A DNA stretch of 35,724 nt from a virus: IMG/VR virus record IMGVR_UViG_3300035670_000723, positions 1 to 35,724 of that record; one strand, written 5' to 3'. Below the pieces are notes generated by a model. The model worked only from the letters and a program-made list of their open reading frames with translations. It had not been told where the DNA came from and did not search any database. Shown here one piece after another: positions 17,901 through 30,907 of the stretch. The position numbers and the translations under genes are program-made. Within the stretch, counting starts at the first letter, position 1; every line of letters begins with the position of its first letter.

Positions 17901-20119
17901 ATCTGTCCGTCGAAGATGTTTCGCAGGAAGTAGCCGGGGTTCATCAACGTAAACGGCTTCCAGATTTCGTTTTGGAAGAACTCAACAGCGTCGAGGATTG
18001 CGCGCTGTTCACCGTCGCCAGTTTTTGTGGCGCGCTGGACTGTCTTGCGCCAGAATGGGTTGGTTGCCAAAGCGCGCATCTTGCGTACGTCAGGCAAAAC
18101 GACGACATTGTTCAATAGTTCAGAGAAGATTGTTGGGCTGAGGATTTTGCCGTTCAAGTCGTCGACGCTGTTGACATTCACGCCTGCGCCAGCAAGGGTC
18201 TTGATGAGGTTGGCTTCGTCCACGCCGTAGTTGTCGATCAGGGTGCGAACAAGATTGTGGCCTGGGTTCTTGCCGATTTCGGTTGCGATGCGCTGACGCA
18301 TTTTGGCAACTGCCTGGTCCTGCTGCTCAATGAGTTTTGCAATCGCCTTTTCGGGGACGTCGTAGTTGTGGCGCAGAACCTCAGCCACAGCCTCTTTGAT
18401 GACGTTGCGGGCCTCATAGACACCGGTCGGGCTGCCAGTGCCAGTGTTGAATGCTTTGGCAGTCTTGCCAATCACATACGCACGAACATCTGCTGGCACC
18501 TTTGAGCCCAGCGTGTTCATGAAGTTTTTGATGTTCAGAACCGCGTCGTAACGCTGCTCAGGGTTGCCCTTGACGAGCATCACGTTGTCGGGGACTGCTG
18601 ATCCCCACTTGCGTACGAACTTGTTGACCTGCGGGATGCGCATGTAGGTTGCGTTCGCAAGTTGGCTAAGTGGCTTGGCTCTGGCGGCGGCAAGGTCGCG
18701 GATGTCTTCAACGAACTGGCCGGGACGCTGATCCGTTGTGGTGCGCAGTTTGGCTGCAGCCTCCGCGAACACGCGCTGCACTCCACCGTTTTCAGCGGTA
18801 TCCAAAAGTTTGAGTGCCTGCTGGCCAGTGATTTTTCCTTCAAAGATTTCGTCTTGGATGCGGAATGCGTGGTAGTTGCGACGGACCTCAATGGTTTCGG
18901 TCAGTTCGTCTACCTGCTTTTTGGTGGCCTTGATGCTCTCGCGCCACGCTTTGCGGGCCTCATCAGCGTTGATGACGTTGGGGAACATCGCGGTGATTGC
19001 ACCAGGGCGGCGCGCCGCGTTGTACAGGGTGTCGAGTTCTTGCTGCGCATCAGCGAGGTTGTTGCGCAAACGGATCGAGTCGTCGGTGTACTCGGCTACA
19101 AGTTTGTTTGCAGCCTTTTCGAGGCGTCGGGCGCCACGGTTGGTACCCCACCATTTGCCGAAGTCGCTGGCGTCCAGCGCTTCACGGGCCTGGCTGATGA
19201 CGCCAGCCTCTGCCAGTTCGCCTGAGCGTTGCACTGTGCGTGTTGGTGAGAACACTTTAGGTGCTTGTGCGCCGAGTTGTGCTGCTTCTTCTGCAGAGTC
19301 GAGTGTTTCACGGAGCGCCTGCTTGGCTGCGTTGGCGCGAACAACGTCGCCTGCTTTCTCAAGTTCGTCAATGTGTGCGAGAACAGCGGTGGTGTCAGGG
19401 ATTAGCGCTCCAGATGCGATGCGAACACCGCCGATCTGACCTGTGAGCCGAGCCGTTTTGGCGACTTTTCCAAGCGCAATGGTGGGGTCTACGAACTGGA
19501 TTGCGGCGTCTACAGCACCGGAGAGAAGGCGGTAGGCAAGGCTTTTTTCTGGCAGTAGCAGGCTTGCTGATGCGCGTCCGATGGTGAATGCTTTGCCGTC
19601 TTCCATGACGCCACGGAACTTGCGGGCACGTTCGGATTGTGCCTTTGCGATGTCGTCGGAAACGAAGAATCCTTCACCCTGAGCGTCAGGATCTGCGAGC
19701 AGAGAGCCGAGTGTGGTCGATTTGAAGATGCCCGACATGCTCGGATCGGGGTTTACGGTTTTGGACGCGATGTTCTGGATCAGTTCAGGGGTCAAGTTGA
19801 GGGTTGCGTTGATGTAACGCGACGCTTTCTTGACTGGTTCATAGAAGAACCGCTGAATGAAACCCTTTGCGTCCTCTTGTTCGGTGAGTTGGCTACGAGC
19901 CGAGATGTTGTTGGCAAGATCTACCGCTTGGTCTGACGCGTTTGCCTTCGCGAGCGACAATGCGGTCGACGGTTTGATGTATTGGCCGCGCTGATAGATG
20001 TTGCTGACCGCTGCAGCGACCTCGGGGCGAATAGTTTTCTGGACACGTTCACGAAACTTCTGTTTTGAGGAGATTTCGTTGTACGCAGCCTCTTGAACAA
20101 GAGGGTTGAACAGTTCCAC
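14972..20119 (-). CDS. giant internal virion / ejection-type protein, 1715 aa
   Basis: The largest gene of the window, starting at a GTG 5 nt after the previous stop. The protein is largely helical and soluble, with long charged segments, a central stretch of aromatic/Gly-rich sequence (FTLMNPGYFLRNIFDGQMHI), and later blocks such as RVMAPFAAAWREVLTKYVTQ and LAAPVKGLSMGFQFNPSLGP. No lysozyme, protease or transglycosylase catalytic motif was spotted. Giant proteins next to the portal in podovirus-like phages usually serve as internal core or DNA-ejection proteins, which is the inferred role. A polyvalent protein carrying enzyme domains is the main alternative. Reading frame continuity over 5.1 kb is perfect. 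Confidence 0.68.
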   Translation of the reverse strand: MELFNPLVQEAAYNEISSKQKFRERVQKTIRPEVAAAVSNIYQRGQYIKPSTALSLAKANASDQAVDLANNISARSQLTEQEDAKGFIQRFFYEPVKKASRYINATLNLTPELIQNIASKTVNPDPSMSGIFKSTTLGSLLADPDAQGEGFFVSDDIAKAQSERARKFRGVMEDGKAFTIGRASASLLLPEKSLAYRLLSGAVDAAIQFVDPTIALGKVAKTARLTGQIGGVRIASGALIPDTTAVLAHIDELEKAGDVVRANAAKQALRETLDSAEEAAQLGAQAPKVFSPTRTVQRSGELAEAGVISQAREALDASDFGKWWGTNRGARRLEKAANKLVAEYTDDSIRLRNNLADAQQELDTLYNAARRPGAITAMFPNVINADEARKAWRESIKATKKQVDELTETIEVRRNYHAFRIQDEIFEGKITGQQALKLLDTAENGGVQRVFAEAAAKLRTTTDQRPGQFVEDIRDLAAARAKPLSQLANATYMRIPQVNKFVRKWGSAVPDNVMLVKGNPEQRYDAVLNIKNFMNTLGSKVPADVRAYVIGKTAKAFNTGTGSPTGVYEARNVIKEAVAEVLRHNYDVPEKAIAKLIEQQDQAVAKMRQRIATEIGKNPGHNLVRTLIDNYGVDEANLIKTLAGAGVNVNSVDDLNGKILSPTIFSELLNNVVVLPDVRKMRALATNPFWRKTVQRATKTGDGEQRAILDAVEFFQNEIWKPFTLMNPGYFLRNIFDGQMHIYLENDGSLASMLNKPFAYFSWVLGKRGGAGIAGEAFTPAAREALERYGDELLPAEEAFFRAQQNKAMKHVGDPVDAMERMIMSGEYGFTTRVDNPQLHTMGILDQLRMLNKDPLVRRAMAREGTTKNVDELMEYLETVPDVKESLLDLARSGFVYGVENGRATRIKLPPTLSDDPDELLRVLIQTEVFGRVDKWYNVPELRVIAANNRVPIIEPGNQRAIVEDFVKGFDVADADVYYVEGKQGVGTVFRGKGQYADRDFVVIDVQRKRVPVDEINNPGQTVVRDVWKAIPVYPLESTTLKPGVLDKGRAFMKTPLTPGQKGKMYDDELMRVVDTIYNSADNANNELIPAVTGFAMRHKEDPAKYTEKWLGKWREFSDFFFNGLVGAGTNYLEKSPIWQQYYYRNVRENAELLSKTEFNRLIANIRRDAEKVGMTPNQFIGGGRGSKLFDELVALEPKAKGVGTVEQLSEFAGNRATSRMKDVLYDAAKRSNAEDVLRVMAPFAAAWREVLTKYVTQFADDPANYRRVQRAFVGMTNMDLEGDGTGFFYKDPQSGQFVFNYPLSDKASQLFTGLTAPLAAPVKGLSMGFQFNPSLGPVAQIATNAMFKFVPKENDFRKFLLPYGSPGTSILDFTPGYMRKMISALKADPSQLDGVFGQTYVETVRALQASGNYDLSDTEQREALFDDAVGKARILTIFRALNQFVGPASGATKFEIDTKEGDVYMSQLIKAFQDMQEKDYESAVPDFLETFGDDMLLYVSGKSKSLVGGVQPTEKFEAWARDNEKIMKRYEGVAGFFAPGQDDFSFTAWKAQVDRGQRERLTAEQVVEQAELMVGSSLFRRQRLKFGAYPNAAQQEWLREYRKALHAKYPGFPEMPSFDPSVFPTLIGNLKAIVEEPSLQNNDIVKATKLYLNKRDQMLALAGEAGLASLKSKQVEPLRNYLASVADVLIEKYPDFKRLFEQELQAELLQYDEQ

Positions 20120-20124
20120 GGTGG

Positions 20125-20526
20125 TTACACCATGTCTTCTGTGAAGGCACCTAGCAAATCTCCCAAGTCTTCAGTTGGGAAAAGTTCGTAAATGGCGCGA
20201 AGTTCCTCGATTGCGCGCTGATCGTTGGTCATCAACAGCGGAATACCTGCCTGAGCAGCGTTCATCCCTGGCCCGAAGTTCGCTCCAGCGGTGATCGGCT
20301 CGTTCGGTCGTGCGGTGGGTGCACCAAACTGGACTACCTGACCGGGAACTGGGCGCTGAACGGGTTGCGGCACGTTCTCGGTGGGCGGTGCGGCCATCGG
20401 AACGGCGCGCTGTGCAGCCATCTGTGCACCAGCCTGACCGTATGTTTGTCCTGTTGCGGCTTGTGCGCGTACGGCACGGCCGGTTCCCATCAAATCTGTG
20501 CGGTTGCTGTAGTTGACGTCTGACAT
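20125..20526 (-). CDS. small protein next to portal, 133 aa
   Basis: The ATG overlaps the portal stop (TAATG). Residues 15-95 are rich in Ala, Gln, Pro and Gly and probably disordered. The last about 35 residues form an acidic helix (NDQRAIEELRAIYELFP, then EDLGDLLGAF). A Pro-rich linker with an acidic terminal helix may serve as a tether to portal or capsid. No family is recognised. Confidence 0.62.
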   Translation of the reverse strand: MSDVNYSNRTDLMGTGRAVRAQAATGQTYGQAGAQMAAQRAVPMAAPPTENVPQPVQRPVPGQVVQFGAPTARPNEPITAGANFGPGMNAAQAGIPLLMTNDQRAIEELRAIYELFPTEDLGDLLGAFTEDMV

Positions 20527-22280
20527 TAGGCCCCCAGTTGTGCGAGTAGTGCGTCAATGTTCGGCGGTCCCTGCGGTGCCTGCACTGGAGCCTCCGCTCC
20601 CATGCCTGGCATTGCGAGTCCTGGCATCGTTTCAGGTGCTCCAGCGGGCATCGCGGTTGCTTGACGGTCCTGCGCGCGCTGGTTGGTGCGACGCACAGCC
20701 TCATACAGGCTGACGTCCTGCTCCACAACAAGTTTGGTGAGATACGCGAGGTCGTCTGGCTGGTACGGTCCCTGCGGATTCGCAGCCTGCTGCTGGATTG
20801 ACGACAGCAATGCGGCTTCGACACCTTCAGCGATGATCTGATCGTGCTCAAAATCAGGATCGGAGATCAGCGGGTCGGCTTCACGCGCAGACTCTTTCGA
20901 CATGAGACCAACACCGAGACGCTGGCCGAGGCCGATGATGAGGTTGTTGACGTCGGAACCTGATGCCGAATACGAAACGTAGTGGAAGTCTGTCTGCCAC
21001 ACCTTGTTCGGCGTATAGGTTTCCTGTCCGACGGTGCGCTTGCCGGGCATGAAGAACGTCTTGGGTGTGTCACCCCAGTACGCCTTCTCAACTGCGATGG
21101 CGATCTTGTCTTCGTGGAGCAGGCTGTTTGCGAAGATGTCTTGTGCTTCTTGGACGCGGTAGTCGACGGTGGCTGCGAGGACGGCTTCGCCGCGGCGGCC
21201 GGTACGAATGTTGGTGGCTGATTCGCCACCGAACTCTGCGGGGATGGCACCCTCGAGACGTTCTTGGCGTTCGAGGCGGTCCAGCGCGGTGTCGGTTTTG
21301 TAGCCGGGGTTGATTTGGTTTTGGCGGATGTCGCCACCCTTGACGATTCCGAGGATGCCTGCTTTGCCGTCAGCCAACTGAACGACCTCAGGGTTCTCAC
21401 CGGGGCGGGCAACGAGGTATTCCTCGGGGAAGATGCCGCGTTCGATAGCGATCTCGGTTAGCGCTTGGAGGCGGGCGCGGGTGTAGTACATGCCGAGTAC
21501 GCCGTCGAACTGTCCGCGCGGTGCATCGAGGGTGATGCGCTGGGGGACGACTGCGAGTGGCATGCCTGCACGGTTGGGGATTGCTTCAAGGCGGAGGTAG
21601 TCGAGTCCTGCGCGTTCCGCGGCGTTGAGTTCAGGGTTGTCTTCTGCGCCAAGGACGATCATTTGGATGCTGTCAGCGCAAACGTATTCGAGCATCGTGT
21701 AGCGGGAGTCGGCTCCGATGCGTCCGAAGCGGAGTTGTCCGGCGACGATGTCACCGTAGTTCTGCATCAGGAATGATGCGGTGACACGCGAAGTGAAGAT
21801 GCAGTTCTCGGGGATGAGTTCGTCTTCTTCAACGGGTGCCGAGAACGTGTCGAGTGGGCTGCGGATTTCCCAGCGCGGTGTCAGTTTGTTGAAGTCCGGT
21901 TTGATGTAGACGGGTGAGGTGCTGTAGGCGAGGAGGTGGCGGGCGCGGCGACGCAGTTTCATCTGCATCTTGTTTTCGTCCCAGATGCCGAGCATCGCCT
22001 TCTTGCGCATTCGTGCGTACTTCTTGGACTGCTCCGAACCTTCCTTGATTGGCGGGAAGTATGGGGATGGCATTGTGGATGAGACACGCATGGACATTTG
22101 GTCCAAGCCTTGAACCAGCAAATTGGCGACGTTTGATTTCGCGTTCTTGTCGAGTTCGTTCAACGGAACGACAACGTCTCCGTTTGCGAGATCGCGTACG
22201 CGGCGCATCTGTTCATGCAGCGGGCCAGCGGCGAGTCGACGCTGGTGGTACAACTCAACGATTTCGTCTACTGATCGCAC
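20526..22280 (-). CDS. portal protein (podovirus-like)
   Basis: A 584-aa protein starting with GTG after ATTGGAGTGAC. It contains a helical N-terminus, LANLLVQGLDQMSMRVS-type packing (here NVANLLVQGLDQMSMRV), the block PVYIKPDFNKLTPRWEIRSPLDTF, a central PNRAGMPLAVVPQRITLD, and QEAQDIFANSLLHEDKIA. The C-terminal 60 residues are Pro/Ala/Met-rich. Size, order (terminase then portal) and the capsid type support the call. It forms the dodecameric DNA channel at the capsid vertex. A shared regulatory palindrome lies immediately upstream. Confidence 0.85.
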   Translation of the reverse strand: MRSVDEIVELYHQRRLAAGPLHEQMRRVRDLANGDVVVPLNELDKNAKSNVANLLVQGLDQMSMRVSSTMPSPYFPPIKEGSEQSKKYARMRKKAMLGIWDENKMQMKLRRRARHLLAYSTSPVYIKPDFNKLTPRWEIRSPLDTFSAPVEEDELIPENCIFTSRVTASFLMQNYGDIVAGQLRFGRIGADSRYTMLEYVCADSIQMIVLGAEDNPELNAAERAGLDYLRLEAIPNRAGMPLAVVPQRITLDAPRGQFDGVLGMYYTRARLQALTEIAIERGIFPEEYLVARPGENPEVVQLADGKAGILGIVKGGDIRQNQINPGYKTDTALDRLERQERLEGAIPAEFGGESATNIRTGRRGEAVLAATVDYRVQEAQDIFANSLLHEDKIAIAVEKAYWGDTPKTFFMPGKRTVGQETYTPNKVWQTDFHYVSYSASGSDVNNLIIGLGQRLGVGLMSKESAREADPLISDPDFEHDQIIAEGVEAALLSSIQQQAANPQGPYQPDDLAYLTKLVVEQDVSLYEAVRRTNQRAQDRQATAMPAGAPETMPGLAMPGMGAEAPVQAPQGPPNIDALLAQLGA

Positions 22281-22286
22281 GTCACT

Positions 22287-22310
22287 CCAATGTTAGGCAA
22301 ACCTATCAGG
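22287..22310 (-). promoter_or_regulatory. palindromic element upstream of portal, matching the capsid promoter block
   Basis: TTAGGCAAACCTAT at 22293-22306 on the plus strand; read on the minus strand it gives ATAGGTTTGCCTAACAT. The capsid promoter has the equivalent TTAGGTTCACCTAACAT. The shared CCTAACAT keeps the same TAACAT -10-like hexamer. The -35 position is weak here. The element fills most of the 36-nt gap between terminase stop and portal start. Confidence 0.55.
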
Positions 22311-22316
22311 AGATTA

Positions 22317-24287
22317 TCATGCCGTCAGCCATGATGGGCGCCAGAGTCGTGGCGGCTTCTTGACTGGTGACAGTTGCGGCATGTGCAACTCTGCGAACCA
22401 GTGAGCCATCACAAGGTCGGTGCCGTTCTTTTTGTCTTTCGTCCACGACGTCATCTCGTCAACGAACGCGAGTGTTCCCCAGTTCTCTCGCATTGACGGG
22501 AGCCGTACCTGGCCGGTGCGCCACAGCGGTGGCAGCAAAGCCTCAACACCGAGGTTTTCGTCGAGTTTGTTTCGTGAGGTGGTGTGGGGGACGACGTTGA
22601 CGCCGTGGAGTGCCTGCCATTTGCGGACGAAGTCGTGGGCAAGAAGGAAGCGTTGGGCGGCGTTGATTTCGACGATCCAGTGGGAGATTGGGTAGCCGAG
22701 TTCGAAGGACTGTGACTGCCAGTCTTCCATGATGCCGGAGTATTCGCGGGTACCGGTGTCGTAGCCCAGCAACTGTTCCGCGGTGAGTTTGACCCGTTCC
22801 AGGTTGATGAGGTAGCGGAGGTTGGTGGATGGCTGGTAGAGCCACCATTGGATTGCCCAAAACTGGGTGGGTGACGGGTCGACTGAGGCGATGGAGATGA
22901 TCGGGGGTTCGAGCCCGTATGGGATGTGGCCTGGGCGTCGGTCGTTGTCAATGCAGCCGGGGTACATGACGCCGTCTGGTCCCATGCCGCCTGTCGCCCA
23001 CACGCGTTCGATCAGGTATGACCCGGCCTCCAAGTCTTCCTGCTGGTAGACGACTTTGAACTTAGAGGGTGTGTTGTAGCGGATGTAGGAGAGGTCTTTC
23101 CACGGGATGCGTTGTGGTTCAAGCAGCGGGCCTGCGGGCCAGGGTGGTGCAGTCTTTTTGAGGCTGGCGGGGCCTGTATCTAGTTCTTCGTAATAGGCTT
23201 TGTAGACGATGTGATGGTATTTGGACCGTTTGACAGGTTCAGCCAAAGCCTCCTCAGTTTCGTCGTCGAACTCGTCGTAGGTGATTTTGGACAGGCAGTG
23301 GGCGTACAGGTCTTGGGGTCCTAGCCGCTGCCCGATGACCGCCAACACGCCGCCCGGTTCGACGCGGGCTTCAGCCATCGAGTCCCAGCGTTCCAACAGT
23401 TTGTCGCGGGCCACCGACTCCTTCGAGTTCTCAGGGGAGGCCACGTCGTCAAACAGGACCAGGTCGGCGCGGTGGCCGATGAACTCTGACTCGATACCGT
23501 ACGCCGACACGGTCGGCTCCTTGTTGTCCAACCCCGACACCCCATACTGCTCAACGATGAACTCCTCAGCCCGCCACAGGGCACCCACGTTGTTGGGTTT
23601 GAACCGTCCGTAGTCCACAGCCAGGCAGGCTTCAGCGTTGAGGGCCAAACCACGTTTTACCATCTCAGGATCAGGCTGAATCGGGACCGTGCGCTCGAGG
23701 GTTTCGCGGATGCGGCGTGAATACATCTTGGCAAGGGTTTGGGACACCGACCCGATCATCACTCGGATAGCCCGGTTACGGACAATCGACCAGACGGCGA
23801 CGTCATGGAACAGGGTGGACTTACCGGCACCTGGCGGACAGTTCAGGACAAGGAACTCCTTTTCGGGGGATTCCAGGTAGCCCACCAACTTGTATGCGGC
23901 ATCCACCTGCCAGTTCGACGGCACACGCCCCAGATAGACCCGCCGGAAATAATCGAAATCCTCCAACCCCCTCTTAGCCCGCTCATTCAACCTCGAGGTA
24001 GGCCGGACCAGAGGCAGCGAATCATCGTTCACAATTTCACGAACGATCTTCCGTTTCGACTCCGACCCAGAAGCCGTAACAGCCTTCCCCTCCAAAAGGT
24101 TGACACGATCAGACTCAACCTTCAACCGCTCCGCCTTCGCAGACCAATTCAACGCCGTCCGATACGACACCCCCGCCACCCGGGCAGCCTCACGCAACGA
24201 CACACCAGAATTCACCGCCTGCCAAAACAGGGCACGATCCTCAGCCGAAATACTACGCTTCCCCTTCGCCACACTGATACCATACAC
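22317..24287 (-). CDS. terL: terminase large subunit with N-terminal HTH
   Basis: The motor that packages DNA. Walker A appears as PPGAGKST near residue 140 and Walker B as LVLFDD near residue 255. The C-terminal nuclease-type half contains IASVDPSPTQFWAIQWW and a WIVEINAAQ segment. Before the ATPase core, residues about 8-40 (FWQAVNSGVSLREAARVAG, then YRTALNWSAKAE) form a clear helix-turn-helix, of the kind usually found in small terminase subunits. No separate small subunit was identified nearby. The start is uncertain: GTG at 24287 is used, GTG at 24272 is equally possible, and neither has a ribosome site at normal spacing (see the hairpin at 24291-24330). Confidence 0.9.
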   Translation of the reverse strand: MYGISVAKGKRSISAEDRALFWQAVNSGVSLREAARVAGVSYRTALNWSAKAERLKVESDRVNLLEGKAVTASGSESKRKIVREIVNDDSLPLVRPTSRLNERAKRGLEDFDYFRRVYLGRVPSNWQVDAAYKLVGYLESPEKEFLVLNCPPGAGKSTLFHDVAVWSIVRNRAIRVMIGSVSQTLAKMYSRRIRETLERTVPIQPDPEMVKRGLALNAEACLAVDYGRFKPNNVGALWRAEEFIVEQYGVSGLDNKEPTVSAYGIESEFIGHRADLVLFDDVASPENSKESVARDKLLERWDSMAEARVEPGGVLAVIGQRLGPQDLYAHCLSKITYDEFDDETEEALAEPVKRSKYHHIVYKAYYEELDTGPASLKKTAPPWPAGPLLEPQRIPWKDLSYIRYNTPSKFKVVYQQEDLEAGSYLIERVWATGGMGPDGVMYPGCIDNDRRPGHIPYGLEPPIISIASVDPSPTQFWAIQWWLYQPSTNLRYLINLERVKLTAEQLLGYDTGTREYSGIMEDWQSQSFELGYPISHWIVEINAAQRFLLAHDFVRKWQALHGVNVVPHTTSRNKLDENLGVEALLPPLWRTGQVRLPSMRENWGTLAFVDEMTSWTKDKKNGTDLVMAHWFAELHMPQLSPVKKPPRLWRPSWLTA

Positions 24288-24290
24288 CAG

Positions 24291-24330
24291 TCGGCTACAG
24301 GACCTCCAGGTTCCTCCTTCCTGTAGCCGA
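24291..24330 (-). promoter_or_regulatory. 12-bp hairpin presenting the Shine-Dalgarno in its loop
   Basis: Perfect arms 24291-24302 and 24319-24330 (TCGGCTACAGGA/TCCTGTAGCCGA). On the minus strand the 16-nt loop is AGGAGGAACCTGGAGG, which holds two purine-rich ribosome sites, and the stem ends 3 nt before the GTG start of terminase. This may regulate terminase translation. Confidence 0.5.
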
Positions 24331-24342
24331 CACACAAACGTC

Positions 24343-24399
24343 CCACCCCGATGACAAGAGCCCCAGGACTCTGCAACAAAAAATTGCTAGTCGGGGTGG
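24343..24399. other. two-hairpin structured element closed by a 9-bp stem
   Basis: The closing arms CCACCCCGA (24343-24351) and TCGGGGTGG (24391-24399) enclose an AGAGCC/GG-A-CTCT hairpin and a GCAA/TTGC hairpin with an A-rich 7-nt loop. No wobble pairs are present, so the strand cannot be decided. It could be part of the terminase leader on the minus strand or the 5' side of the plus-strand RNA. Confidence 0.4.
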
Positions 24400-24425
24400 T
24401 CAACACACAAACCATCTGCTACATT
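24397..24425 (+). promoter_or_regulatory. possible plus-strand promoter for the structured RNA
   Basis: TGGTCA (24397-24402), a 17-nt spacer, and TACATT (24420-24425) preceded by an extended-10 TGC. Each hexamer matches consensus at four of six positions. The predicted start, near 24432, falls 2 nt before the 5' arm of the long helix. Confidence 0.33.
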
Positions 24426-24431
24426 GCAGCC

Positions 24432-25087
24432 ACCAGTTTCTTTGGGAGGACAGGAGGCCACGCTTGGGCGGCAGCCCATAAAACTAGACAGCAATGTTTA
24501 GTCGAGAGCCTGTGAGGGTTGGACAACAAAACCACAAAGACGGTTTGTGGCAACACCCTAATCCTCCTGTTTTTCCAAAGAAACTGAACACAACACCCCA
24601 AAAACACCGGACCCTAAACGATTAGATTCCTCCTCGCGAACAACCGCCAGGGCAGCATCGACAGATCGCACGGGATAATGGCCTGAAAAGGGGACCGTAG
24701 ATTGTCGTCTTCTTTCGGTATACAGACAGACGGGTTCAGACGTAAAACAGAACTTGGGGGGGCTAAAAACCCGTACGCCAAATAACCACTAGCAGGGGAT
24801 AAAAAAAAATGTACAACCCCTACCCCATAGCAAAGGGGCGCAAGCCCCCCAAATGCACACACGGACTGTCCCGATAATAGATACCCACTAGACCCGTAGC
24901 CTCGGCATACCCCGGGTGTGACTTGGACTGTGATAGCGGTCTCGTGAAGTCCTGGAGTTGTAGTGACGGTCTGGTGCGTCGTAAACGTGTCGCTCGTCGC
25001 GCATGCGACGGCGACACCTTAGAAACGCGCACGAATGTGCGCGTGGGGCCCCGCCGCGCAACGCGCGGTGGGGCGCGCGATTTTTTT
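24432..25087 (+). ncRNA. putative large structured noncoding RNA (plus strand)
   Basis: The stretch from terminase start to 25450 has no convincing gene. It contains a 24-bp helix (24434-24457 with 24563-24586) that is continuous only if read as plus-strand RNA, because 24446, 24448 and 24449 pair with U as G-U. Inside it are hairpins at 24466-24477, 24483-24502 (loop GCAA, one G-U), a 5-bp helix 24515-24519/24555-24559, and 24532-24550 (7 bp). Further along: 24730-24736/24768-24774 (7 bp), 24794-24798/24817-24821, 24835-24848 (GGGGC-GCAA-GCCCC), 24856-24864/24912-24920 (one mismatch), 24925-24929/24948-24952, a 13-bp hairpin with one bulged T at 24987-25017, an 8-bp hairpin at 25025-25044, then the terminal hairpin and T7. 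GNRA loops and wobble pairs point to the plus strand. It may be related to the large ornate phage RNAs (GOLLD, ROOL), which is unproven. Its start is an estimate. Confidence 0.5.
25048..25087 (+). terminator. strong rho-independent terminator, plus strand
   Basis: A 12-bp stem (25048-25059/25063-25074) with one G-U pair and an AAC loop, then GCGCGA and seven T (25081-25087). It is preceded by two other GC-rich hairpins. It is oriented to stop plus-strand transcription, although all genes are on the minus strand. On the minus strand no T-run follows. Confidence 0.68.
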
Positions 25088-25450
25088 GGGGAAACGACCA
25101 CTCTAAGTGAGACTCGAGGGGGGTCGACGCAACTCGAGGGGGGCAGACTCGAGCACGAGTGACGGCCGCACACGGAACGCAGGCCGCGACGTCCTCATCG
25201 AGGACGACGCGCGGCCCCCGACCAACTCGAGCGAACTCGACGCAGGCCGCTGACATCAAGTCACCACCGACACGGCTCAAGGGCCGAACGACGACCTACG
25301 TCGACGGTAGCGGTAGCGCCTCCGGCGCTCCTCGAGCAGCCTCGAGCCTCCTCGAGGGGCCTCCACACGCGACAAGGCCCACCGCCGCCACCGGCTCGGC
25401 CACGACTCGCGTCGGGCCTTGTGTGTGTGGGGTGGGCTTGTGCCGGGGGT
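25088..25450. other. gene-free TCGA-rich spacer with repeats and hairpins
   Basis: There are 11 TCGA sites within 25081-25440. ACTCGAGGGGGG occurs twice, 20 nt apart (25112-25123 and 25132-25143). A hairpin of 6+7 bp lies at 25183-25215, and ACAAGGCCC/GGGCCTTGT arms lie about 40 nt apart just before 25440. Open frames here are composition-driven and lack start signals. This may be the 3' end of the accessory operon. Confidence 0.55.
25112..25143. repeat. direct repeat of ACTCGAGGGGGG
   Basis: Two exact 12-nt copies with a 20-nt period, followed by a partial third copy (ACTCGAG at 25147). Located at the left end of the TCGA-rich island. Confidence 0.7.
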
Positions 25451-26344
25451 TTAGTCGCGGTCTGCGGCGGCTCGTGCGATCACGAGGCGCTCGTAGAACG
25501 TGCGTGCGTTGGCTGCGATGTTCTCGATTTCGGGTTCGTGTTCGCGGTGTCGCCATTCTCCGGCGATGTGTTCGTGTTCGAGGTTGCCGTCGTTGTGCTC
25601 GATGTAGGCGGTCACTCCGAAGGGGTGCGCTGCGATCGAGGTGCGGACGTTTTCGATGCGGTCGTCGTGTTCGAGTCGGTCGGGTGTGGTGATGACGATC
25701 GCGAGCGCGGTGGTGTTCTCTCCGATCTGCTGGGCGAGGTCGAGGTCGCCGATGAGGTCGCCGGGGCGTGGTGCTGTTGCGACGCGCTCGATCGTGATAC
25801 CGACGACCATTCGGTCGCCGCGCTCTTGTGGTGCGTCGATGTCGACGGCGTAGATCGTTGCGGCGTCGTCTGCGGTGTCGTCGTGGTGGTGGATTTGGCT
25901 CACGATCGTGTCGAGGCTTTCCGCGATGATCGAGCGGAGTCCGGCGACGTTGCGCTCGGCCATTTGGTCGAACACGGCCGCGGCTTGCTCGAGGGCGTCG
26001 CCTTCGTCGATGTCGCGGCCTGTGTGCCGGGCGTCGATGCGTCGGACGGTGGCGCGGATGTCGCGCTTTGAGCGCTGAAGCCCGGCCACGATCGTGGGGT
26101 GTTGGCCGTCGAGCATCTCGACGAGTGCGTCGACTGCGTCGTCGTAGGTGTCGCTCATGCGGTGCGAGAGATCGACGAGGTCGTCGAGGATTTGCTCGCG
26201 GGTTTTGTGCTCGAGGACTTCGGGCCGGATGTTGCCGTCGATGTCGTCGAACGTGTCGAGCACTTGCGCGAGTGTGCTCGACGTGCGTCCGTAGGCGTCG
26301 CGAAGTTTCGCGAGGTCGTCGAACAGTTCGGGGTTGGTGGTCAT
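25451..26344 (-). CDS. 297-aa acidic protein, third component of the AAA+/vWA operon
   Basis: I do not recognise a family. The ATG is preceded by AGGAGAAACAACCC and overlaps the stop of the small membrane gene (ATGA), so it is translated with the AAA+/vWA genes. Residues 1-155 are helical and acidic (LAKLRDAYGRTSSTLAQVLD; ILDDLVDLSHRMSDTYDDAV). Residues about 160-250 look alpha/beta (IYAVDIDAP, MVVGITIERV, ALAIVITTP, GVTAYIEH). The last 45 residues are charged and helical. It has no signal peptide or membrane segment. In MoxR/vWA systems the third gene often encodes the client or effector, so this is the most likely substrate-facing component. Codons share the TCGA-rich bias of the island. 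Confidence 0.68.
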   Translation of the reverse strand: MTTNPELFDDLAKLRDAYGRTSSTLAQVLDTFDDIDGNIRPEVLEHKTREQILDDLVDLSHRMSDTYDDAVDALVEMLDGQHPTIVAGLQRSKRDIRATVRRIDARHTGRDIDEGDALEQAAAVFDQMAERNVAGLRSIIAESLDTIVSQIHHHDDTADDAATIYAVDIDAPQERGDRMVVGITIERVATAPRPGDLIGDLDLAQQIGENTTALAIVITTPDRLEHDDRIENVRTSIAAHPFGVTAYIEHNDGNLEHEHIAGEWRHREHEPEIENIAANARTFYERLVIARAAADRD

Positions 26345-26499
26345 GGGTTGTTTCTCCTGTTGTTGGTGGTTGTTTGGTGGTGGTGGGCGCGTCGACGCTC
26401 GAGGCGGCGGCGCTGTTCGTCGCGCTCGACTTCGCGGCCGAAGCGGTACGCGAGCACGACGAGCGCGGTCATGGCGAGGAACACGGCGAGGTCGATCAC
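26341..26499 (-). CDS. small single-TM protein, 52 aa
   Basis: It starts at a GTG 1 nt after the stop of the 24-aa gene and ends at a TGA overlapping the next ATG. A hydrophobic segment (residues 2-17, IDLAVFLAMTALVVLAY) is followed by an Arg/Glu-rich cytoplasmic-type tail and an HHH segment. The orientation is probably N-out, C-in. Coupling with the 297-aa protein and the ATPase suggests that the complex is anchored at the membrane. Confidence 0.6.
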   Translation of the reverse strand: MIDLAVFLAMTALVVLAYRFGREVERDEQRRRLERRRAHHHQTTTNNRRNNP

Positions 26500-26500
26500 G

Positions 26501-26575
26501 TCAGTCACCTCGCAGCCATTGGGCGGCGACGATGATCGAGACGACCACGAGAAGGGCTAGGTCGTTGGTCGGCAT
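26501..26575 (-). CDS. tiny hydrophobic peptide, 24 aa
   Basis: The ATG overlaps the vWA stop (TAATG), and the stop is directly followed by the next gene's GTG. Its core LALLVVVSIIVAA is a single membrane helix. The tight junctions on both sides are the main argument that it is a real gene; the small size leaves doubt. Confidence 0.5.
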   Translation of the reverse strand: MPTNDLALLVVVSIIVAAQWLRGD

Positions 26576-27966
26576 TATCTGTCGGCCGTCCTTGCGTACT
26601 CGCGGAGTCGTCGGTCGATGTGCGGCCGCGCTCGATGTCCTCGAGCGAGGCGCTGGCATAGGTCGATCGCCGCTTCAGCGTCGACGACCTGCGTCACTCG
26701 ATGCCGCTCGAGTCGGCCCACCATGTCAGCGGCGAGGCGTTGCGACGTCGTCGACGAGAGTCCCGTGACGGCTCCGTCACTCACCCACACGACGGGCATC
26801 CCGGCGCGCTTGCGGAATCGACGCACGGCGTAATCGAGTGCCGGGCCGTCGACGCCATTATCGCCGCACACTTCGGGCATTTCGCGAACACGTCGGCCGT
26901 GTTGCGCCAGTAGCCACACGTTCGGCGCTTTGATGTCGCGAGGGTTGCCGGAGTAGCCGACGACGATCGCACCTCGAGCGGCCTCGATGACTGCGTCAAG
27001 TTCGTCGGTGCTCCATGACATCGAGCCGGAGAGATCGAGCACGAGCAGCGCGTCGGTCGCGCGCTGCTTCGTCGAGAAAACTCGACGTTCGGGGTCGGTG
27101 AGTGCTCGACTCATCGAGCGGAGTCGCGAGCCTGTCGCGCTTGGTCGATGACGTGCGCCGATGCGGCCTCGATGCGCGACGACGAGCGACGTCGAGCCGA
27201 TGCGGAGCGGCTGCCATAGGTGGCCGTTGCCGGGTTGCGCTTGGCCGTTCTGACTGTCCTCGCGTTGCTCGCCGGGTTGCGCGTCGGTGTCGCGTGTTCC
27301 CTGCTTTACGTTCCCGATACCTGCGGCGGCGTTCTCGAGCACGTCGACGACGTCCTGCGCCATCGCCGCGACCCGATAGTGCTCGCAGTACTCGCGGTCG
27401 CGTCGACTCGACGACGGCGCGTAGTTCATCGAGTCACGGGTCGCTCGCTTCACCTTGCGGAGCGTGTCACGCAGGCCCGGCCACTTGGAGCCGATCGCGC
27501 GAAGTAGTGGCCTCGATGCGTCGGTGTGAAGGTGTGCCAGCGCCAGCGCGGCGGCCTGCTCCGGCTTCATCGAGTCGACGCGCGAGGCGTACACCTTCGC
27601 GATGTCGACGTCGTGTTCCGGCTCGAGTCCTCGAGCGCGGAGCGCGGCGTCGGTCATGCGTTGGTCATGCCAGCCCTTGACGATCTCGATCGCGGTCGGT
27701 GCGTAGTGACTGCGTCGACGTCGAGCACTCATGTGGCCGCGCACGTCCTCGATCTCACCCGGCACGAAGCCATACCGGGCGCGCACGAGTGCGAGAGTGC
27801 GGAGCGTCTCACCTAGCGGCGAGTCGAGCGTCGTCGCGTCGATGCGGCCGCGCTCGATGTCGACTCGCGTCGACGTCGAGATCGGCGGAGCGTCGACGAT
27901 CTGCCAGCGGTCGGGCGTCTGTCCGTCTGCTCGAGGCTTCAGCCATTCCGGCCGTACGGTCGTCAC
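26575..27966 (-). CDS. vWA-domain protein (CobT/ViaA-like partner of MoxR ATPase)
   Basis: A 463-aa protein starting at GTG, 2 nt after the ATPase stop. Residues 1-300 are helical and charged, with a Gln/Gly-rich linker near residues 230-250. The vWA domain follows: the MIDAS motif DLSGS at residues 311-315 (in LLVLDLSGSMSWS) and the second Asp in VSDG at about residue 397. The third MIDAS position, usually Thr, appears as Asp/Gly (NGVDGPAL), so metal binding may be altered. CobT, NorD and ViaA share this design, and act with a MoxR AAA+ partner as a chaperone-like remodelling or metal-insertion pair. The substrate here is unknown. Confidence 0.83.
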   Translation of the reverse strand: MTTVRPEWLKPRADGQTPDRWQIVDAPPISTSTRVDIERGRIDATTLDSPLGETLRTLALVRARYGFVPGEIEDVRGHMSARRRRSHYAPTAIEIVKGWHDQRMTDAALRARGLEPEHDVDIAKVYASRVDSMKPEQAAALALAHLHTDASRPLLRAIGSKWPGLRDTLRKVKRATRDSMNYAPSSSRRDREYCEHYRVAAMAQDVVDVLENAAAGIGNVKQGTRDTDAQPGEQREDSQNGQAQPGNGHLWQPLRIGSTSLVVAHRGRIGARHRPSATGSRLRSMSRALTDPERRVFSTKQRATDALLVLDLSGSMSWSTDELDAVIEAARGAIVVGYSGNPRDIKAPNVWLLAQHGRRVREMPEVCGDNGVDGPALDYAVRRFRKRAGMPVVWVSDGAVTGLSSTTSQRLAADMVGRLERHRVTQVVDAEAAIDLCQRLARGHRARPHIDRRLREYARTADR

Positions 27967-27968
27967 GT

Positions 27969-28685
27969 TCAGCCCTCAAGCGACGTGACAGAGGCGGCCG
28001 CGAGGATTTGCTCGCGATGACGTGGCAGCGCGATCTCGAGCGCCCGGTCGAGTGAGTGGACGCGCAGTAGTTCCGCGATCGCGTAGAACGTGCGAAGCGA
28101 CACGCGCTCGACGTCGTCGTCGATCATCGCCAGCGCTCGAGCAGGCTCACGCAGGAAGTCGGGCAGACGCTCGAGCGCGGTCGGGTGCGGTTCGTCGATC
28201 TTGATCGCCACCGGGAAGCGATCGCGGAGCGCTTCGGGAAGTAGCACCGGGTCGACGTTCGTCGTCGCGATCACTTGATACTCGCGCGACGGCTTCACGA
28301 TCTCGAGCGTGTCCGGGTTCTGCCATTCGCTCGACTCGAAGGAGTCAGCGGCGAGCAGCAGACTCGAGAGCGCTTCGCCGCCTGCTTTGTCGACTTCGTC
28401 GAAGACGACGCGAAACTCGCCGCGACGCCATGCTCGCGGTACTGCGCCTTCGTGGAATGACCACGAGCCACCGCTCGACGGCTTCCATTGTCCGAAGATC
28501 TGCGCGTCGGTCATGTCCTCGACGCATTGGACACGGAGCGACCCGTTGTTCGGCTTGTGGCCGTTCAGCGCGGCGTACGTCTTGCCTGTTCCGGGCGGCC
28601 CCCATAGCAGTACGCGCGAGAGTCCTGCGGCGAGAGTGTCCTCGAGTGCTTGCCAGCACCCGGGGAGCGTTTGGTTCGTGGTCAC
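27969..28685 (-). CDS. MoxR-type AAA+ ATPase
   Basis: A 238-aa protein starting at a GTG preceded by AAAGGAACCAAAC. Walker A GPPGTGKT is at residues 29-36, Walker B VVFDEVD near 93-99, sensor 1 ATTN near 141-144, and an arginine-containing LRDRFP block follows. The C-terminal lid is short; MoxR family members are usually about 300 aa or more, so this is a minimal version. With the vWA partner it probably forms a hexameric motor that remodels a protein complex. It is the first gene of the operon, about 340 nt downstream of two TetR-type operators. Confidence 0.88.
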   Translation of the reverse strand: MTTNQTLPGCWQALEDTLAAGLSRVLLWGPPGTGKTYAALNGHKPNNGSLRVQCVEDMTDAQIFGQWKPSSGGSWSFHEGAVPRAWRRGEFRVVFDEVDKAGGEALSSLLLAADSFESSEWQNPDTLEIVKPSREYQVIATTNVDPVLLPEALRDRFPVAIKIDEPHPTALERLPDFLREPARALAMIDDDVERVSLRTFYAIAELLRVHSLDRALEIALPRHREQILAAASVTSLEG

Positions 28686-29023
28686 GTTTGGTTCCTTTCG
28701 TTAGGTCGACGGTCGTCGACGTCCTCGAGGATACTCGATCGTGTCCGGGTTAGTGGTGGATTTCGGTTCCGGGTTCGTGACGTGCTCGAGCGGCGTCGAG
28801 TCGAGCGGCCCCGGCCCCGGCCCCATGATCGGCGCGGCCCGGCGTCGAGCGGCCTCGACGTCGACGTCGCGGCCTTTGATGTGGCACGTCCTCGACGACC
28901 CCGTCGCGGCCGGATCGCGACCCGTAGTTCGACGTCCTCGACGACCCCGTCGCGGCCGGATTTCTCCCGGCGTCGATCGTCCTCGACGTCGACGTTGCGG
29001 CCGTCGACCCGGTGCGCGTCACC
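28686..29023. other. TCGA-rich leader region with imperfect tandem repeats
   Basis: A low-complexity stretch carrying at least four related blocks of the form TCGACG...CGCGGCC. Two are identical over 30 nt (28886-28915 and 28932-28961). The 46-nt spacing is not a multiple of three, so the long minus-strand frame through it is unlikely to be coding. It lies between the operators and the ATPase start and may act in cis. Confidence 0.55.
28886..28961. repeat. 30-nt direct repeat
   Basis: Exact copies at 28886-28915 and 28932-28961, period 46 nt, core CTCGACGACCCCGTCGCGGC. Degenerate relatives lie at about 28854-28874 and 28979-29005. Confidence 0.75.
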
Positions 29024-29039
29024 TACTGACCGTTCAGTA
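29024..29039. promoter_or_regulatory. TetR-family-type operator palindrome 1
   Basis: TACTGACCGTTCAGTA: 6-bp arms around CCGT. It resembles known TetR-family operators. It lies upstream of the AAA+/vWA operon. Confidence 0.55.
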
Positions 29040-29065
29040 ACGGCCGTCACTCAGCGTGGTTTTTA

Positions 29066-29081
29066 CTTACCGTTCAGTAAG
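29066..29081. promoter_or_regulatory. TetR-family-type operator palindrome 2
   Basis: CTTACCGTTCAGTAAG: 5-bp arms. It shares ACCGTTCAGTAA with palindrome 1, the two 12-mers starting 40 nt apart (about four helical turns). No regulator gene was found in the window. Confidence 0.55.
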
Positions 29082-29138
29082 CGAACACACGTTCGCCCGG
29101 CGCGGCGGCGGCCGCGCGACCCCCCTTACCCCTGAGGT

Positions 29139-29318
29139 CTACACATCGGTAGCGGTAGGTTCACACATCGGTAGCGCCTCAGTCGCAATACCAGTGTTGA
29201 TGAAGAACGCGATGTCCTCGTCACTGATCGGTGCAGGGGTGATGTTGATGTGTGGGACGGGTTGGATTGCCATGATGGGCATCCGTTTCATGCGAGGGTG
29301 TCGCGGCATTGTGTTCAT
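29139..29318 (-). CDS. small hypothetical protein, 59 aa
   Basis: The ATG overlaps the preceding stop (ATGA), and GGAGGAACCAA precedes it. The sequence begins MNTMPRHPRMKRMPIM, is Pro/Ile-rich in the middle, and has an acidic helix (ISDEDIAFFINTG). The 3' end contains a 22-nt period duplication whose two copies are read in different frames, so the last about ten codons may be recent. No family is recognised. Confidence 0.6.
   Translation of the reverse strand: MNTMPRHPRMKRMPIMAIQPVPHINITPAPISDEDIAFFINTGIATEALPMCEPTATDV
29141..29176. repeat. direct repeat ACACATCGGTAGCG
   Basis: Two exact 14-nt copies (29141-29154 and 29163-29176), period 22 nt, covering the 3' end of the 59-aa gene. Confidence 0.75.
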
Positions 29319-29458
29319 TTGGTTCCTCCGTGTGGTTGCATCTCGATGATGCGTGTTGAGTGCTTGAGTGGGTTGGCGCAGGTCGGTGGGTGTGATGTCT
29401 TGACGTGGATTGTTATGCGTCGGCCACAGTTAGGGCAGATCCATGTGGTTTGTTTCAT
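29315..29458 (-). CDS. small Cys-containing protein, 47 aa
   Basis: MKQTTWICPNCGRRITIHVK gives a CPNC knuckle, and a third Cys lies about 15 residues later (PPTC) next to several His. This is a zinc-ribbon-like fold, possibly DNA- or RNA-binding. It is coupled by 4-nt overlaps on both sides. The function is unknown. Confidence 0.65.
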   Translation of the reverse strand: MKQTTWICPNCGRRITIHVKTSHPPTCANPLKHSTRIIEMQPHGGTK

Positions 29459-29631
29459 GGTGTTGTCCACTTGGCTAGTGACCAGCCGCGGATGTCTCCG
29501 TCACGGTTGATGTACACCCAGAACGGGGAGTCCGGGTCACAGTTGCAGCCCACGATTCTTTGTGGGTCGTGTGTGATTGTGGCTCCGCAGTTACCGCATC
29601 TTGCGCTTGCGACGTTTGGTTGATTTGTCAT
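29455..29631 (-). CDS. small zinc-ribbon-like protein, 58 aa
   Basis: Starting at MTNQPNVASA it has CGNCGATI, then CNCDPDSPFWVYINRDGD, so two paired Cys sites. It overlaps the upstream gene by 41 nt, unusually long compared with the 4-nt overlaps nearby; no later start is available. No family is recognised. Confidence 0.6.
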   Translation of the reverse strand: MTNQPNVASARCGNCGATITHDPQRIVGCNCDPDSPFWVYINRDGDIRGWSLAKWTTP

Positions 29632-29770
29632 TGAACCATTCCCCTTTGCGGTAGAGGTGGCACCAACACCCACAGTTATCTATGACCTCTTGTGGCCATG
29701 TTGCGAGTATTAGTGACACCTCTCCGCAGTGGTCGCAGATTGTTTTAGACGATTGCCCAGAGTTCGGCAT
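29591..29770 (-). CDS. small Cys-rich protein, 59 aa
   Basis: Starting at MPNSGQSSKT it contains CDHCGEV and, about 25 residues on, CGCWCH, then a basic Lys/Arg tail. This is a plausible zinc site with a nucleic-acid-binding tail. The start lies inside the upstream gene (26-nt overlap). A start farther upstream would lie deeper in that gene. Confidence 0.58.
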   Translation of the reverse strand: MPNSGQSSKTICDHCGEVSLILATWPQEVIDNCGCWCHLYRKGEWFNDKSTKRRKRKMR

Positions 29771-29918
29771 CGTCGAACTTGGCTGCGCGTCGTGCGAGTG
29801 TGACCGTTTTGGTTTCACCTTTGCTGTTGGTGACTTCGACGGTGTCGCCGGGCTGGCCTTCGTGTCGAATCTTGATGCCCCAGGTCTCGTCCTTCAACTT
29901 GTACCAGGTTGCGCTCAT
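29745..29918 (-). CDS. small beta-rich protein, 57 aa
   Basis: Starts MSATWYKLKDETWGIKIRHE after a strong AGGAGGAACAGC ribosome site. It continues GQPGDTVEVTNSKGETKTVTL, an SH3-like small beta barrel pattern found in many actinobacterial phages. The ATG overlaps the previous stop. The role is unknown; nucleic-acid binding is possible. Confidence 0.7.
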   Translation of the reverse strand: MSATWYKLKDETWGIKIRHEGQPGDTVEVTNSKGETKTVTLARRAAKFDDAELWAIV

Positions 29919-30103
29919 GCTGTTCCTCCTTGTGATAGTGCTACTTGTAGTCGCTCGACCATACTCGTGAGTGTGGCGAGTTGTGTTTCTAACTGTGTGA
30001 CACGCTTCTGCAGTTCTTGTTTGTCTGCGTGAAGTGTGTCGATCACACCTTGCTGCTCTGAACACCAAGCCTGATAGACAAACAGATCGGAGTTCTCGGA
30101 CAT
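29915..30103 (-). CDS. small coiled-coil protein, 62 aa
   Basis: Residues about 18-56 form a strong leucine-rich coiled coil (VIDTLHADKQELQKRVTQLE). The N-terminus is short and the end is glycine-rich. The ribosome site is weak. It is the first gene after whiB and coupled to the next. It is perhaps an oligomerisation or adaptor protein. Confidence 0.65.
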   Translation of the reverse strand: MSENSDLFVYQAWCSEQQGVIDTLHADKQELQKRVTQLETQLATLTSMVERLQVALSQGGTA

Positions 30104-30126: not shown

Positions 30127-30381
30127 CTAATAACGCCAGTATTGTCGGCGTTGGTTGGGGGTGAGTCCGCCCCAGATTCCGTAGGTGATCTCGTTCGTAA
30201 CGGCCCAGTCGCGGCATCGTTCCCGCACCGGGCACCGGTTACAGATCTCTACGACCCCTTTGATTTGCTGGCGGCCCGCATGGTGGAAGAAGAATGTTTC
30301 CGTATCCATGCCTTTGCAGGCGGCCAGATCCATCCAGTCGGTCTCTTTGTCTGCGAGTTGGAAGTCGGTCAGCAGGTCCAT
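30127..30381 (-). CDS. whiB: WhiB-family iron-sulfur regulator
   Basis: An 84-aa protein when started at the ATG at 30381. This start has GGAGG 10 nt upstream, formed by the last codons of the lysozyme-like gene, and follows that gene's stop. A longer version would overlap by 53 nt. Four Cys (22, 47, 50, 56) are arranged C-x24-C-x2-C-x5-C and bind a [4Fe-4S] cluster. The beta-turn motif GIWGG is at residues 68-72, followed by a basic tail. WhiB proteins bind sigma factor region 4 and retune host transcription. They are restricted to actinobacteria and their phages, so this gene is the best host marker in the window. Confidence 0.93.
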   Translation of the reverse strand: MDLLTDFQLADKETDWMDLAACKGMDTETFFFHHAGRQQIKGVVEICNRCPVRERCRDWAVTNEITYGIWGGLTPNQRRQYWRY

Positions 30382-30385
30382 GTAG

Positions 30386-30907
30386 TCATAGCCTCCACGG
30401 CGCGAAACCGTTGCCTTGCGCTTCTTGCGAGTAGTCATACAGGGCCTTTGCGGCTTTCAGATTCGTGAGCGGATCGAACAGTTGTTCGCATCCCACGGTA
30501 TCCAAAACGCCGATGGTTTGCAGGTATCCGTTCGGGTAGTACCGGGTGGGTAGGCACCATGAGCGGTCGTTGATCTGGGTGAGGCCGATGTCTTTGGACT
30601 TGTCCCTGTTGAGGGTGGTGTTGTAGGCACCGGGCTGGCATCGGGACTCACGCCAGATGACGTAGTCCAGGGTCGGCATGCTGTCGGCATGCCAGCCAGC
30701 CTCCACAGCCAGTCCCCACCACTGTGGACAGTGGGCGGTGGCTGGGACGGTGGTTGTGGGGGCCACGGAGAGGCGTCTGGGAGCCTCTACAAGGGCCGTA
30801 AACGACCGGGGTGGGGGTGTGTGGGGGGTCGGTTCGTTACCCCCCCTTACACCCCAGACGAGAAAGAGGCTCGACACGACAGCCAGCCCCCGAACAATGA
30901 AATCCAT
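30386..30907 (-). CDS. secreted lysozyme-like / transglycosylase protein
   Basis: A 173-aa protein with a signal peptide or membrane anchor (residues 4-22, IVRGLAVVSSLFLVWGVRG), a Pro-rich spacer, and a lysozyme-like domain with WRESRCQPGAYN (Glu as candidate catalytic acid), DIGLTQIND and LFDPLTNLKAAKALYD. These are typical of small lysozyme/SLT folds that cleave peptidoglycan glycan strands. The ribosome site is GGAGGACCTG. The secretion signal suggests a periplasmic or wall-facing role. It could be part of lysis, alongside the M15 peptidase, or a wall-entry enzyme. Confidence 0.8.
   Translation of the reverse strand: MDFIVRGLAVVSSLFLVWGVRGGNEPTPHTPPPRSFTALVEAPRRLSVAPTTTVPATAHCPQWWGLAVEAGWHADSMPTLDYVIWRESRCQPGAYNTTLNRDKSKDIGLTQINDRSWCLPTRYYPNGYLQTIGVLDTVGCEQLFDPLTNLKAAKALYDYSQEAQGNGFAPWRL

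Follow-up and report, generated by a model that had tools for sequence, protein, structure and literature searches.

The window analysed here is the whole of a 35.7-kb virus record (IMG/VR record IMGVR_UViG_3300035670_000723, positions 1 to 35,724), whose genes lie on the minus strand. They include the gene for the terminase large subunit (22317–24335, minus strand; phrog_38, E 6e-62), which served as synteny anchor, and a gene for a WhiB-like regulator (30127–30438, minus strand; PF02467, E 2e-21). WhiB is a marker of actinophages (PMC10202952), and this gene content points to a tailed phage of Actinobacteria as the source of the window. Neither an exact scan of bacterial GTDB genomes with the core RNA pattern described below nor a host search of GTDB genomes via the terminase returned a genome. 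ARAGORN detected no tRNA or tmRNA gene in the window, and Rfam gave no match to one either.

Between the terminase gene and the next gene is a block that the first-pass annotation had proposed to encode a large structured plus-strand RNA, antiparallel to the genes. A candidate promoter at its upstream end, read from the sequence, consists of a −35-like element, TGGTCA (24397–24402), a 17-nt spacer and an extended −10 element, TGCTACATT (24417–24425), in which TGC precedes TACATT. Transcription would be expected to start near 24432, in agreement with the earlier placement of the start 2 nt before a long helix. That helix (24434–24457/24563–24586) is present as described, with 24 contiguous pairs on the plus strand (21 Watson–Crick, and three G-U at its centre) and no mismatch. 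It closes a 5′ domain (24434–24586) with inner hairpins, including ACTAGACA-GCAA-TGTTTAGT at 24483–24502, and the predicted folding energy of 24430–24590 was far below that of shuffled sequences (z −7.08; 0 of 200). Over 24430–25086, the plus strand (z −6.9) and the minus strand (z −5.2) both folded well, so that fold energy alone cannot choose the strand. The variable 3′ region (24771–24902, plus strand) includes the second GCAA hairpin noted earlier, GGGGC-GCAA-GCCCC (24835–24848).

The block ends in a putative intrinsic terminator (24987–25087, plus strand) of GC-rich hairpins at 24987–25017, 25025–25044 and about 25047–25079, followed by T7. It had been called the best terminator of the window; its three hairpins, T run and orientation stand, and its rank is that of the first-listed among 11 terminator-like sites in a scan of 20000–30000. 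The closest relative, L077, has the same three hairpins and T run with compensatory changes. As a feature of the whole family, an intrinsic terminator was not adopted, since such sites were not enriched on the RNA strand (23/143, against 28/143 on the other strand). Past the terminator, the intergenic sequence 25100–25420 contains many CTCGAG repeats.

On the other side of the RNA promoter, two strong inverted repeats (24289–24331 and 24342–24398) lie between it and the start of the terminase gene; the loop of the first contains AGGAAGGAGG on the terminase strand. Similar leaders with different arms were seen in relatives, arms of at least 9 nt occurring in 40 of 157 loci versus 8 in shuffled sequences. 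The repeats at 24289–24398 may possibly form a structured leader of the late mRNA.

The conserved core and its strand

The comparison drew on 80 loci whose terminase is related to that of the window. Sampling was by sequence patterns and terminase similarity, so that all counts given here are biased lower bounds and some contigs may represent the same phage. The long helix was not found among the relatives: blastn with the 5′ domain over the collected loci returned nothing convincing, an exact 21-nt scan gave 0 matches, and L077 lacks the helix. In the sequences compared, both the long helix and the GCAA loops, which had been offered as evidence for an RNA, are thus private to the window genome and lie outside the conserved part. 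The comparison with relatives instead moved attention to a core at about 24605–24770, between the helix and the terminator, which the first-pass annotation had not mentioned. With blastn, up to about 185 nt (window 24589–24770) could be aligned in 30 of the 80 loci, mostly at 82–93% identity, and in all 30 the core was antiparallel to the terminase. The core is 79–93% identical among relatives at the DNA level, as against 68–85% for the terminase at the protein level, and exact pattern scans retrieved it from 51 and 53 viral contigs. Judged by this conservation, the core, and not the 24-bp helix, is the part under selection, and this despite a predicted folding energy at the centre of the block no better than that of shuffled sequence (z +0.41).

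Alignment A1 contains 43 core sequences (42 distinct rows) and supports three structural elements. P1 is an irregular hairpin (24612–24674, plus strand) made of four segments, 24612–24614/24672–24674, 24619–24622/24665–24668, 24625–24627/24657–24659 and 24631–24638/24645–24652. Compensatory changes were found in all four, and seven pairs exceeded the phylogenetic null. P2 is a GAAA hairpin, GGCCUGAAAAGGGGACCG (24680–24697, plus strand), in which CCU (24682–24684) pairs with AGG (24689–24691) around a loop (24685–24688) that is GAAA in 43/43 sequences. Its stem reads CUC-GAAA-GAG in L133 and L134 and CCU-GAAA-AGG elsewhere; because the former two sequences support the hairpin, it replaced the pairing proposed by RNAalifold. 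The third element is a pseudoknot helix (24706–24710/24738–24742, plus strand), CGYC(U) with (A)GRCG, which crosses a putative helix, ACCG/CGGU (24694–24697/24716–24719). The variable pair of the pseudoknot is C-G in 28 sequences and U-A in 14 (E 1.7e-4 in the phylogenetic null), and changes in the crossed helix were of one kind only, from G-C to G-U (11 sequences). The core closes with a nearly invariant 3′ end, AAAACAGAACUUGGGGGGGCUAA (24743–24770, plus strand), seen in alignment A1 and in the pattern matches.

In P1, the internal loop CCUAAA/CACGG (24613–24618 with 24669–24673) resembles the 11-nt GAAA tetraloop receptor, which is CCUAAG/UAUGG. By this resemblance, the loop might serve as the docking site of the P2 GAAA hairpin.

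Covariation in related phages, on which the earlier proposal had been staked, was found. Among the 43 core sequences, 97.2% of the cells were paired, compared with 26–48% when the partners were slid, and 13 of the 30 core pairs, including the pseudoknot, showed compensatory changes. In a tree-based null, in which the observed substitutions are re-enacted along the tree (an in-house implementation in the style of R-scape), eight core pairs were significant, the pseudoknot pair among them, and none was significant outside the structure. The structures were partly read from the same alignments that were tested, a circularity that the slid, shuffled and tree controls reduce, leaving a residue. Pairing of a G-run in the core with the C-run of a 3′ motif (24903–24913) was dropped, since the C-run is frequently interrupted with no compensating change. 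Three matches of a P1 pattern scan (L136, L137 and L139) were attributed to chance, and an RNase P-like ACAGAA motif was noticed to which no model match corresponded.

Several signs agree on the plus strand as the RNA strand. In addition to the covariation, G-U cells outnumbered A-C cells by 55:13 in the 43 clade-1 sequences and by 36:5 in clade 3 (clades are defined below), and the GNRA loop was present in 43/43 and 32/32 sequences, respectively. Of 43 distinct clade-1 loci, 38 had the promoter pattern TTGNNN-N16-18-TANNNT no more than 150 nt from the core on the RNA strand, where 1.35 were expected, and 3 had it on the other strand. The RNA strand also carried an extended −10 element in 39 of these 43 relatives versus 3.75 expected (27/43 on the other strand). 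The promoter of the window, TGGTCA-17-TACATT, does not satisfy the strict TTG pattern of the relatives and is weaker than theirs. Reading frames through the core were interrupted, any plus-strand frame being open in at most three of 43 sequences and any minus-strand frame in at most 15. These comparisons confirmed the prediction that the block 24397–25087 encodes an independently promoted, structured, noncoding plus-strand RNA that is divergent from the terminase gene.

In the 3′ region of many clade-1 loci (for example L083, L112 and L116), AAAAATG[AC]ACACA is followed at a fixed 48 nt by CGGCA. The two are in frame in many of these loci, and other relatives have stops in this frame. A small ORF starting at AAAAATG was not adopted, since that frame contains stops in some relatives.

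Clades and genomic contexts

Covariance models were built for the core of clade 1, to which the window belongs (R1), and for clade 3 (R2). R1 matched the window with 199.8 bits (E 4e-57), the window being part of its training set, and gave seven further weak matches in the terminase set, all antiparallel to and 220–390 nt upstream of the terminase. These seven belong to clade 2, which retains P1 and the P2 hairpin, GUGGCCGGAAACGGGGACCG, and has a different 3′ half (GGUGUCGGCUAAAA...GUGGGGGGAG), shared with clade 3. A pattern for this half retrieved at least 120 contigs. In clade 3, 95.1% of cells were paired, 16 of 20 pairs showed compensatory changes and 11 were significant under the tree null. 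A variable hairpin loop of clade 3 contains an invariant palindromic UGCA, which might make kissing contacts; the clade-1 loop has no palindrome of this type. Besides the 30 strong matches of R1, R2 matched 46 terminase loci, so that the two models together cover 76 of the 80; in three of the four loci missed, the sequence upstream of the terminase is no longer than 102 nt. R2 failed to match the window, also when its filters were switched off. Clade 2 was matched by both models (weakly by R1, E 2e-4 to 0.2), and the unity of the three clades therefore rests on it. With kinship between clades 1 and 3 taken as transitive in this way, the RNA would represent a superfamily of three clades in well over a hundred uncultured actinobacteriophages. 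The window qualifies as a member through its conserved core, in which P1, the GNRA hairpin and the pseudoknot show covariation.

A blastn search with the three clades found no isolated phage at E < 0.01 or with more than 13% query coverage, and no plasmid. The Nanopelagicales phages E7 and F5 (OX376640 and OX376641) are cultured actinophages from fresh water, with 39-kb genomes that encode WhiB and glycosyltransferases (PMC10202952). Their terminase is distantly related to that of the window (25% identity), and neither R1 nor R2 gave a significant match in E7/F5 or in Streptomyces phage Immanuel3.

Of 188 RNA loci, 156 had a terminase of the window type and 14 an unrelated one (phrog_979/phrog_2), and the RNA was divergent from the terminase in all 170. 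The phages with the unrelated terminase include L140, L149, L194, L264, L265, L268, L269 and L274, the first three with a WhiB gene nearby. No terminase was nearby in two other loci: in L175 the RNA lies beside SSB and exonuclease genes, and in L250 (4601–4698) it lies among, and is codirectional with, DNA methyltransferase and RecE genes. The RNA thus accompanies two unrelated terminases, occurs in these two further contexts as well, and is not specific to a single packaging enzyme. The distance between RNA and terminase varied from 130 to 2850 nt. Downstream genes were convergent in 61 cases and co-directional in 37, and this mixture indicates that the RNA is not the leader of one gene.

The sole motif that tracked the terminase type was the separate 3′ motif, CGGCATACCCC in the window (24903–24913), conserved beside the window-type terminase. 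This CGGCAKACCCCC motif was found in 78 of 101 loci with a window-type terminase, in 40 of 1066 control windows and in 0 of 4 loci with other contexts. It may be part of the RNA or itself a DNA site, and is a candidate cos/pac packaging site. A further intergenic signal is an SOS-box-like sequence, CGAACNNNNGTTCG, which 33 of 125 loci had near the RNA and none of 65 control stretches contained. In relatives such as L169, L186 and L226 it lies up to 1.5 kb downstream of the RNA; the window has it at 29082, 30475 and 35494. Its distribution suggests that operators of LexA type or of a repressor share this intergenic region.

Mode of action and comparison with known RNAs

The reading that we consider probable is that of a free-standing, trans-acting phage RNA. 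A gene of about 650 nt on the plus strand, from about 24432 to the terminator at 25087, would be transcribed from its own sigma-70-like promoter, divergently from the terminase/late operon, presumably by host RNA polymerase during infection. The product would fold into a compact tertiary structure and act in trans, either as a stable RNA or within a stable ribonucleoprotein. Its likeliest way of working would be to bind a protein of the host or the phage while the cell is being taken over; base-pairing with a single target seems less likely. Trans action is argued by the varied contexts of the RNA, which occurs with an unrelated terminase and, in L175 and L250, near SSB and exonuclease genes and within a group of methyltransferase genes, respectively. 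A mild argument against base-pairing regulation of the phage's own genes is that a search of both strands of the remaining genome found no significant sequence match to the RNA, the longest exact match, 14 nt, being at chance level (11–17 in shuffles). Three observations weigh against the reading as a whole: the strong tie to the terminase neighbourhood would fit a packaging or cis role as well, the folding energy of the core is no better than that of shuffled sequence, and clade 1 is linked to clade 3 only by way of clade 2. It is conceivable, if somewhat doubtful, that the RNA is of a new class with a biochemical activity of its own, as a ribozyme, in an RNA-only assembly or through capture of a host machine (such as RNA polymerase or the ribosome), and that this class has spread among uncultured actinobacteriophages independently of any single packaging system.

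Self-assembly into an RNA-only particle, as an abundant RNA made in lytic growth in the manner of GOLLD and ROOL, is in our view unlikely. The general type is the same, a structured phage-borne RNA with a variable 5′ part, a conserved part and no apparent protein partner, and the UGCA loop of clade 3 might allow kissing contacts; set against this are the lack of a match to the Rfam models of GOLLD and ROOL in any clade, a conserved core of about 170 nt, which is far smaller, the lack of a nearby tRNA in the window and the clade-1 loop without a palindrome. We regard as improbable a cis element, in which divergent transcription or RNA structure would control the terminase operon or the downstream gene. 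The constant divergent placement and the second hairpin-rich leader, between the promoter and the terminase, would suit such an element; the variable terminase distance and mixed downstream orientation would not, and the long invariant unpaired stretches and the pseudoknot exceed the needs of promoter interference. The odds are poorer still for a packaging RNA serving the adjoining terminase, analogous to the phi29 pRNA: invariable divergence beside the terminase speaks for it, and the two unrelated terminase families, the two loci without a terminase nearby, the tracking of terminase type by the separate 3′ motif only and the unmatched Rfam model of phi29 pRNA speak against it. A DNA-level site (cos/pac, origin or recombination site), with inverted repeats that only look like RNA structure, would suit the inter-module position and the packaging-site-like behaviour of the nearby CGGCAKACCCCC motif. 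It is very improbable given GNRA loops in one orientation, the G-U bias, bulged irregular helices, the pseudoknot and the conservation of a promoter that serves this strand.

Whatever its role, the RNA is near-universal in one phage group (76 of the 80 loci sampled) and common to a second group with a different terminase, and is conserved down to single nucleotides. Its presence in well over a hundred uncultured viruses implies that evolution has kept it for a job. It also lends itself to study: the core is 170 nt long, its pseudoknot can be tested, the promoter is defined and the covariance models can be applied to metatranscriptomes. Were the RNA to target a host machine, a takeover strategy of largely uncultured actinobacterial viruses would come to light.

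To our knowledge, few large structured RNAs have been described from phages (GOLLD and ROOL), none with a settled function. GOLLD was first seen in lake metagenomes. GOLLD and ROOL, large structured phage RNAs of unknown function, form multimeric nanocages (PMC12286853). The first-pass annotation had suggested a relative of these RNAs or a new class, and had proposed an Rfam search with GOLLD, ROOL, OLE and pRNA. None of the 4227 models of Rfam 15 matched the window at the gathering threshold or 24000–25500 at E up to 10, and searches of 12 related loci and of single clades, at gathering and permissive thresholds, gave no match to any family in any of the three clades. The four proposed models are included in this result, as are those of RNase P RNA, 6S-type and other bacterial RNAs. 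We found no description of the family in open-access papers, which is not proof of absence. These searches support assignment of the RNA to a new class, a further family absent from Rfam 15 and unrelated to GOLLD and ROOL; the suggested kinship with those two was not borne out.

GOLLD (RF01998) resembles the RNA of the window in being phage-borne, large and ornate, with a conserved and a variable part and a function that is unknown. It differs in that its covariance model matched no clade, in its size (more than 800 nt for many GOLLD RNAs, against a conserved core of about 170 nt here) and in its neighbourhood, since GOLLD adjoins tRNA islands and the RNA described here adjoins the terminase/late operon. 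ROOL is similarly phage-borne and structured, with pseudoknots and no known partner, and is set apart by the lack of a model match, another size and another neighbourhood. The phi29 pRNA is, like the present RNA, a small structured phage RNA with a terminase nearby; its Rfam model gave no match, and the RNA described here accompanies two unrelated terminases and also occurs away from terminases.
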